Assembly: GCA_035606695.1 (NCBI GenBank)
Contig: DATNEW010000020.1
Span: 124,001-188,000 of the forward strand
Origin: Gemmatimonadaceae bacterium
Lineage (GTDB): Bacteria; Gemmatimonadota; Gemmatimonadetes; Gemmatimonadales; Gemmatimonadaceae
Length of the DNA stretch: 64,000 bases
Direction of reading: 5' to 3'
Part shown: piece after piece, positions 26,718-27,996 of the stretch
Position numbering within the stretch: position 1 is the first letter of the stretch
How the letters are laid out: each line of letters opens with the position of its first letter
Program-made: the position numbers and the translations under genes
Notes under the pieces: generated by a model
What the model saw: only the letters and a program-made list of their open reading frames with translations
What the model was told of the DNA's origin: nothing
Database searches by the model: none

Positions 26718-26753
26718 CTTGACGCCCCGCGCCCCCGCGATACCTTCCACCGC

Positions 26754-26848
26754 ACGCGGCGATTTCTCCCGATTTGACGGGCCGCGTACCGAGGCCGCAG
26801 GCCTCGCGGACACCCGTCTAAGTCGTGGCTGATGCAACGGCCCGCGAC
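26754..26848 (+). promoter_or_regulatory. Structured metK leader, candidate SAM-sensing riboswitch
   Basis: ACGCGGC (26754-26760) can pair with GCCGCGT (26781-26787). GACGG (26776-26780), inside that loop, can pair with CCGTC (26814-26818) beyond it, forming an H-type pseudoknot. A GAGGCC-GCA-GGCCTC hairpin (26791-26805) stands in the third loop. GATTT follows the first strand directly (26761-26765) and GATTTGA recurs at 26771-26777, as in loop 1 of SAM-II riboswitches. The SAM-II GCTAAA element is not matched exactly (CTAAG at 26818-26822). GTCG (26822-26825) and GGC (26827-26829) can pair with CGAC (26845-26848) and GCC (26840-26842), which would break the terminator stem. The class is an inference. 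Confidence 0.5.
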
Positions 26849-26875
26849 GAACGAAGTCGGGGCCGTTTTCATTTT
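26836..26875 (+). terminator. Intrinsic terminator in the metK leader
   Basis: AACGGCCC (26836-26843) pairs with GGGCCGTT (26860-26867), and CGAC (26845-26848) with GTCG (26856-26859), with one bulged G. The stem is followed by TTTTCATTTTC. It ends about 35 bases before the metK start, so metK is probably controlled by attenuation. Confidence 0.75.
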
Positions 26876-26910: not shown

Positions 26911-27996
26911 ATGAGCTCGTATACGTTCAGCTCGGAATCGGTCAGCGAAGGACACCCCGACAAGGTCTGCGACTTCATCGCCGACTCGATTCTCGACGCC
27001 CACCTCGCCGGTGATGCCAACAGCCGCGTCGCGTGCGAGGTGCTCTGCAAGAGTGGCCAGGTCGTGCTCGCCGGGGAGATCACGTCGCGCACCGACGTGG
27101 ACTACGAAAAGATCGCGCGCAACGCGATCCGCGAGATCGGCTACACCGATCCGAGTGAGGCGTTCAACGCCGACGGCGTGAAGGTGATTCAGTTCATCAG
27201 CAAGCAGTCGGGCGACATCGCGATGGGCGTGGACACCGGCGGCGCCGGCGACCAGGGCATCATGTTCGGCTACGCCAGCGACGAGACGCCCGAGCTCATG
27301 CCGCTGCCCGTACAGCTGGCGCATCGCCTCGCGCAGCGCATCTCAACCGGCCGCAAGAAGGGCGAGCGCACCTGGCTTCGCCCCGACTCAAAGACGCAGG
27401 TCAGCGTCCGCTACGAGAACAATCAGCCGGTGCGGGTCGAGACCGTGCTGGTGTCGACGCAGCACACCGCCGAGGCGTCGCAGTCGGAGATTCGCGATTA
27501 CGTCGCGAGCTGCCTCGCGCCCGAGGTGCTTGGGTCGTGGTTCGGCCCGCACGTCGAGATTCTCGTGAATCCCACAGGCCAGTTCATCGAAGGCGGCCCC
27601 TCGGCTGACTGTGGCGTGACGGGTCGCAAGATCATCGTCGACAGTTACGGCGGCATGGGCCGGCACGGCGGCGGCGCGTTCAGCGGTAAGGATCCGTCGA
27701 AGGTGGATCGGAGCGGCGCGTACTTTGGCCGCTTCGTCGCGCGGCAGGTCGTGAAGAACGGCTATGCGAAGCGCGCCGAAGTGCAGGTGGCGTACGCGAT
27801 CGGTCGTGCCGAGCCGGTGTCGGTGCGCGTGGATACGTTCGGGACAGGCGATGCGAGCGCGGCCGAGGAATTCATTCGGACGTTCGACTATCGCCCGGCG
27901 GCGATGATCGAGCGGCTCGAGCTGCGGAAGCCGATCTATCGCCAGACGACGAACTATGGTCACTTCGGCAAGCAGGGTTTGAGCTGGGAAGCGTAG
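26911..27996 (+). CDS. metK: S-adenosylmethionine synthetase
   Basis: A 361-residue cytoplasmic enzyme that makes S-adenosylmethionine from methionine and ATP. Visible motifs are SEGHPDK (ATP and methionine site), GAGDQGIMFGYA, the DSYGGMGRHGGGAFSGKDPSKVDRS block (split here as GGGAFSGKD, the P-loop-like signature) and the C-terminal YGHFGK. It is shorter than the usual 380-400 residues; the shortening is spread over surface loops and all active-site segments are present. GGAGAG stands nine bases upstream of the ATG. A structured leader with an intrinsic terminator precedes it and a strong terminator follows, so metK is probably monocistronic. It fits the methyl-cycle theme set by ahcY and the SahR-like regulator about 16 kb away. 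Confidence 0.97.
   Translation: MSSYTFSSESVSEGHPDKVCDFIADSILDAHLAGDANSRVACEVLCKSGQVVLAGEITSRTDVDYEKIARNAIREIGYTDPSEAFNADGVKVIQFISKQSGDIAMGVDTGGAGDQGIMFGYASDETPELMPLPVQLAHRLAQRISTGRKKGERTWLRPDSKTQVSVRYENNQPVRVETVLVSTQHTAEASQSEIRDYVASCLAPEVLGSWFGPHVEILVNPTGQFIEGGPSADCGVTGRKIIVDSYGGMGRHGGGAFSGKDPSKVDRSGAYFGRFVARQVVKNGYAKRAEVQVAYAIGRAEPVSVRVDTFGTGDASAAEEFIRTFDYRPAAMIERLELRKPIYRQTTNYGHFGKQGLSWEA

Follow-up and report, generated by a model that had tools for sequence, protein, structure and literature searches.

The SAM-II riboswitch (RF00521) is an H-type pseudoknot with a bulged U in the 3' strand of P2 and GGYGAUUU at the junction of P1 and L1, and it acts mainly at transcription on methionine and SAM genes. 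Its completely conserved pocket positions are U10-12, U20, U21, G22, C23, G42, C43, U44, A45, A46, and A47, the last of which contacts the amino and carboxylate groups of methionine (PMC3764141). SAM-V (RF01826) has a P3 hairpin between P1 and the 3' strand of P2, and its A50 binds the amino-acid end of SAM; inosine at this position severely weakened SAM binding (PMC6061858). SAM-V is translational, with a Shine-Dalgarno sequence in P2a, and is known from marine bacteria. SAM-II long loops (RF01726) is a variant of SAM-II whose name refers to its longer loops (PMC2864571), and it was described from Bacteroidetes and marine sequences. In known tandem arrangements, two different SAM aptamers stand in series before methionine genes (PMC9481103).

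We analyzed a 64,000-nucleotide stretch of a Gemmatimonadaceae genome (hereafter, the window), in which a metK gene is preceded by a leader with SAM-II/SAM-V-group architecture. With a probability of roughly 0.75, we interpret this leader as a SAM-responsive transcriptional OFF riboswitch. The structure, its conservation, the promoter, the competing helices and their exclusivity, and the gene context are observed, while the SAM ligand and OFF polarity are inferred, in the absence of binding or termination data. The features of the leader, in window numbering, are as follows.

26719-26746, forward strand: sigma-70-type promoter (TTGACG at 26719-26724, 16 nt, TACCTT at 26741-26746).
26754-26760, forward strand: P1 5' strand, ACGCGGC, pairing with 26781-26787.
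26761-26769, forward strand: L1, GATTTCTCC, predicted third strand of a triplex; GAUUU at 26761-26765 corresponds to G8-U12 of SAM-II.
26770-26780, forward strand: P2 5' strand, CGATTTGACGG, placed by pair coordinates and covariation.
26781-26787, forward strand: P1 3' strand, GCCGCGT, supported by covariation.
About 26789-26808, forward strand: P3 hairpin, supported by folding of 55 leaders against shuffles.
26814-26825, forward strand: P2 3' strand, CCGTC-T-AAGTCG; the bulged T26819 corresponds to U44 of SAM-II and U47 of SAM-V.
26822-26848, forward strand: antiterminator, GTCGTGGC (26822-26829) with GCCCGCGAC (26840-26848), which cannot coexist with P2 or with the terminator.
26836-26875, forward strand: intrinsic terminator, with stem 26836-26867 and a T-rich tail to 26875.
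26911-27996, forward strand: metK, methionine adenosyltransferase, 361 aa (TIGR01034, 485.9 bits).

The region 26754-26825 thus forms an H-type pseudoknot of P1 and P2, with P3 inserted before the 3' strand of P2. A first-pass annotation of this DNA had placed P1 exactly as we find it and had pointed to the inserted hairpin and to GATTT following the first P1 strand as in SAM-II, all of which hold. Its P2 (26776-26780 with 26814-26818) consists of real pairs but is only the lower half of the helix, which continues past the bulged U26819 with 26770-26775 pairing with 26820-26825, for 11 pairs in total. The annotation was also right that there is no exact GCTAAA; TCTAAG, with the bulged U and two A residues, stands at the equivalent place. 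As annotated, the terminator with its T-run leaves 35 nt to the metK ATG at 26911, and the leader alone folds with z = -3.2. A simple promoter and terminator scan of the window picked up neither the leader promoter, because its -10 box is weak, nor the terminator, because its stem has a mismatch.

To place this element, we collected relatives in several ways. BLAST against 98 related genomes yielded approximately 16 conserved homologs of the leader. A pattern scan of 84,980 species gave 61 matches, of which about 50 are real, and about ten that lacked the 3' half were dropped as chance. With two MAG labels reconsidered, the real matches all fall in Gemmatimonadota and Acidobacteriota; for one match (L071), the "Kuenenia" label seems to be a mistake of naming or binning. 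With a covariance model (R2), the element turned up in 57 of 395 Gemmatimonadota and in 15 of 396 Acidobacteriota. In its own genome, the element is single copy (R2; window 26752-26827, 70.5 bits, E 1.4e-12), and the next match has 25.5 bits. This E-value is not independent because the training relatives include this leader; unlike it, the BLAST homologs are independent evidence.

The resulting alignment comprises 86 distinct relatives from these two phyla. Some of them were collected with patterns in which certain bases of P2 and of the P1 3' strand are fixed; variants found by BLAST and the covariance model are free of this constraint. Three degraded or diverged copies (L142, L227, and L241) were retained in the counts. 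One of these, L142 (genome G030), scores 38.9 bits and has CUGUC where others have CUAAGUC, so it may be degraded or altered in specificity. L072/L242 was excluded from the alignment for an insertion between CTAAG and GTCGCG, which is an inverted repeat with an apparent duplication of CTAAG.

The P1 and P2 pseudoknot is supported by covariation, which the first-pass annotation had set beforehand as a test of its proposal. Across the 86 sequences, 98.3% of pair cells are standard (97.3% in P1 and 98.9% in P2), there are 70 compensatory cells, and both sides change at 11 of 18 pairs, including all seven of P1 and four with compensatory changes in P2. The P2 pairs take the forms GACGG/CCGUC, GAUGG/CYAUC, GGUGG/CCACC, GGCGG/CCGCC, GAAGG/CCUUC, and GUUGG/CCAAC. 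None of 500 shuffles matched the observed values on any of five measures, and controls with slid partners paired in only 28-49% of cells. P3 is conserved as a hairpin and not in sequence: it beats its own shuffles in 52 of 55 leaders, with a mean of -10.3 kcal/mol compared with -5.5 for shuffles (median z -2.1). GAUUU, in turn, is nearly invariant.

Conservation centers on the nucleotides that build the SAM pocket in SAM-II and SAM-V. In the window, U10-12 map to 26763-26765; U20, U21, G22, and C23 to 26774, 26775, 26776, and 26777; and G42, C43, U44, A45, A46, and A47 to 26817, 26818, 26819, 26820, 26821, and 26822. Ten of these 13 positions are kept (U10-U12, U20, U21, G22, C43, U44, A45, and A46), including the contacts to the sulfonium (U11/U21) and to the adenine (U44). 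The three that differ are A47, C23, and G42. G26822 occupies the position of A47 in SAM-II and A50 in SAM-V, and this position is G, paired with a pyrimidine, in 85 of the 86 relatives (alignment pair 24-128), whereas it is A in all 30 SAM-II riboswitches from the same phylum. The G follows in part from collecting patterns that required CTAAG; all 16 BLAST-found leaders, which were not so constrained, also have it. The equivalent of C23-G42 (alignment pair 28-123) is A-U in 76 relatives, G-U in six, G-C in three, and U-A in one.

No Rfam 15 family matches the element in scans at gathering and permissive thresholds; a single microRNA match was rejected as noise. RF00521 does not match it even at E 10 in its own genome, where two ordinary SAM-II riboswitches (40.5 and 37.3 bits) pass the gathering threshold, one of them before a gene that reads as metH-like from sequence. 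Likewise, at E 10, RF01726 gave no match in the same genome and RF01826 gave none in 12 motif-bearing genomes. The element nevertheless shares with SAM-II the pseudoknot, the bulged U, GGYGAUUU, UUG (U20 U21 G22), C43 through A46, a mainly transcriptional platform, methionine and SAM genes downstream, and occurrence in the same genomes. It differs from SAM-II in having P3 within L3, in the change of A47 to G and of C23-G42 mostly to A-U, and in continuous pairing where SAM-II has an A-rich unpaired stretch between P2 and P2a. With SAM-V it shares the core and the position of P3, but it has G in place of A50 and a long P2a, and instead of translational control through a Shine-Dalgarno sequence in P2a it has a terminator platform in the window and in most leaders (L222 being one possible exception).

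These shared motifs raise the question of whether the element is simply a diverged SAM-II that needs no separate name, a reading that overlaps ours, as mechanism and ligand would be the same and only the filing would differ. A model built only from SAM-II of the same phylum (35 sequences) does find the metK leader as its best match in the 64-kb window (13.6 bits, E 0.12), in register over P1, GAUUU, and UUG, and it likewise matched about 15 motif copies in 19 loci. However, a true SAM-II scores 71.9 bits with this model, the reverse search of SAM-II with R2 gave weak scores at most, and the silence of RF00521 in a genome with two real SAM-II speaks against membership in that family, as do the added P3 and the changed pocket. 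Both forms also coexist in one genome and even in one leader. We therefore regard this reading as possible but unlikely; the element and SAM-II are alike in design and separate as families, and common descent is possible. The first-pass annotation had left the choice between a long-loop SAM-II variant and an undescribed class. The former finds no support from the long-loop model, and an undescribed variant of the SAM-II/SAM-V kind fits better because none of the three Rfam models (SAM-II, SAM-II long loops, and SAM-V) recognizes the element. Thus, our best reading is an unlisted variant of the SAM-II/SAM-V kind, with the ligand inferred. We found no description of it in the searchable open literature, a scope that does not include subscription papers or the 224-motif list of 2017; a prior description in that 2017 paper cannot be excluded.

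The leader also carries the parts expected of a transcriptional switch. The first-pass annotation had named a metK transcript starting downstream of 26875 as a refutation; instead, a conserved promoter lies upstream of the element. At least 7 of 12 promoter positions match in 94% of 70 leaders, compared with 16% of shuffles, and the gap from promoter to P1 is mostly 6-8 nt in Gemmatimonadota and 12-14 nt in most Acidobacteriota. With the promoter at this near-fixed distance, the aptamer should be the first part of the transcript. The annotated second pairing (26822-26829 with 26840-26848) exists and competes with both P2 and the 5' arm of the terminator. An equivalent helix (AAGUCGYGG/CCGCGAC or a local equivalent) that overlaps both the 3' strand of P2 and the terminator's 5' arm occurs in 50 of 55 leaders, and a GC-rich hairpin similar to that of the terminator, in most cases with a T-run, is present in nearly all of the 55. 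Computed energies, which ignore the pseudoknot, favor the P2 state by about 4 kcal/mol; therefore, the decision during transcription is probably kinetic. One metK leader (L222, genome G022) keeps the core and the G at the pocket position but has a different platform, with CC/GG in P2a instead of CGAY/GUCG and a GC-rich hairpin adjoining the GTG start codon; this platform may be translational.

The layout of antiterminator and terminator predicts that ligand binding turns metK OFF, a polarity that is itself inferred. In the proposed mechanism, transcription would start at the foot of P1. When abundant, SAM would insert into the major groove of P2, amid U26763-U26765 of the third strand, the U-A pairs, and the bulged U26819, and lock P2. 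Locked P2 would hold AAGUCG (26820-26825), so that the antiterminator GUCGUGGC/GCCCGCGAC is blocked, the terminator forms, and transcription stops short of metK. With little SAM, P2 would open, the antiterminator would form, and metK would be read through. The earlier proposal of a SAM-responsive attenuator agrees with this comparative evidence, though the response to ligand is only inferred.

The genes downstream are largely those of SAM and methionine synthesis. In 55 distinct loci, metK lies directly downstream in 30, including all 17 from Acidobacteriota, and metY and/or a metX homolog in 11. In two loci (L051 and L064), metY is separated from the element by an OsmC-like gene. Another 14 copies precede genes without a demonstrable SAM link, such as helicase-like proteins, an M16 peptidase, and unknown proteins. 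Seven loci (L133, L134, L136, L138, L139, L141, and L044) have a recurring unknown protein just downstream, which is roughly 170-265 aa long and carries a GEYLPPYxPGExEIARLVL-like motif; no Pfam or NCBIfam family was found for the copies tested. In L044, a SAM-I-like aptamer lies in between.

At nine metY/metX loci, an Rfam-verified SAM-II riboswitch stands between the element and the gene. SAM-I-like aptamers also occur downstream of the element, at 48.5 bits in L014 (above the gathering threshold) and 37.7 bits in L011 (below it). In six Gemmatimonadota loci (L088, L092, L067, L044, L028, and L140), the element and its terminator are followed by a SAM-I-like aptamer, and the genes beyond it have no Pfam match where tested. 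In one relative (G025), an ordinary SAM-II riboswitch lies immediately before a metK. Unlike known tandems, those described here begin with the new element and continue with SAM-II or a SAM-I-like aptamer. In related Gemmatimonadota, an element followed by a second, known SAM riboswitch before metY/metX would amount to two SAM checks in series.

Points against SAM as the ligand are the three changed pocket positions, among them A47/A50, by analogy with the effect of inosine in SAM-V (PMC6061858), the 14 copies before genes with no evident SAM link, and the tandems, in which the partners could sense different ligands. The same fold and mechanism might then serve another SAM-related ligand, such as SAH, decarboxylated SAM, or another adenosyl sulfonium, with the A47-to-G change marking altered specificity. 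The uniformity of the pocket changes (G at the aminoacyl-contact position, usually A-U for C23-G42), the continuous helix in place of the A-rich region, and the frequent pairing with a real SAM-II or SAM-I are all consistent with this, and spermidine-binding SAM-I variants offer a precedent (PMC10853860). However, the adenine and sulfonium contacts are kept, the genes downstream make SAM and methionine, tandems of different SAM aptamers with the same ligand are known (PMC9481103), and SAH and decarboxylated SAM would be a poor fit to feedback on metK. We consider a different ligand improbable. A protein-binding or purely structural leader, such as the target of an RNA-binding metK autoregulator or a ligand-free constitutive attenuator, would suit a compact, strongly conserved element without ligand-binding data, but given that conservation centers on SAM-pocket nucleotides and that the element precedes metK, metY, and other genes in two phyla, it merits very little credence.

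Under the preferred reading of a SAM-responsive OFF riboswitch, the element would be an unlisted variant of SAM riboswitch from two large soil phyla that have been little studied. It would also offer a natural test of how the SAM pocket tolerates replacement of the amino-acid-binding adenine, because the SAM-II form (A) and the element (G) share one leader. It is possible, though unlikely, that the element is instead a separate class whose pocket, with G for A47/A50 and a closed P2a, no longer recognizes SAM as SAM-II does, through either a new mode of binding the methionine end or the sensing of another adenosyl metabolite; in the latter case, the tandems with SAM-II or SAM-I would be two-input gates.

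The genome has another metK (G000:C21:55900-56964, L220), a housekeeping copy 56% identical to the MetK of the window and with no riboswitch upstream, and all six genomes searched in the genus have two metK matches. The metK of the window would thus be an extra, riboswitch-controlled SAM synthetase. Altogether, this would be a second metK with a riboswitch beside a housekeeping copy that lacks one and, in relatives, a new type of tandem SAM control.
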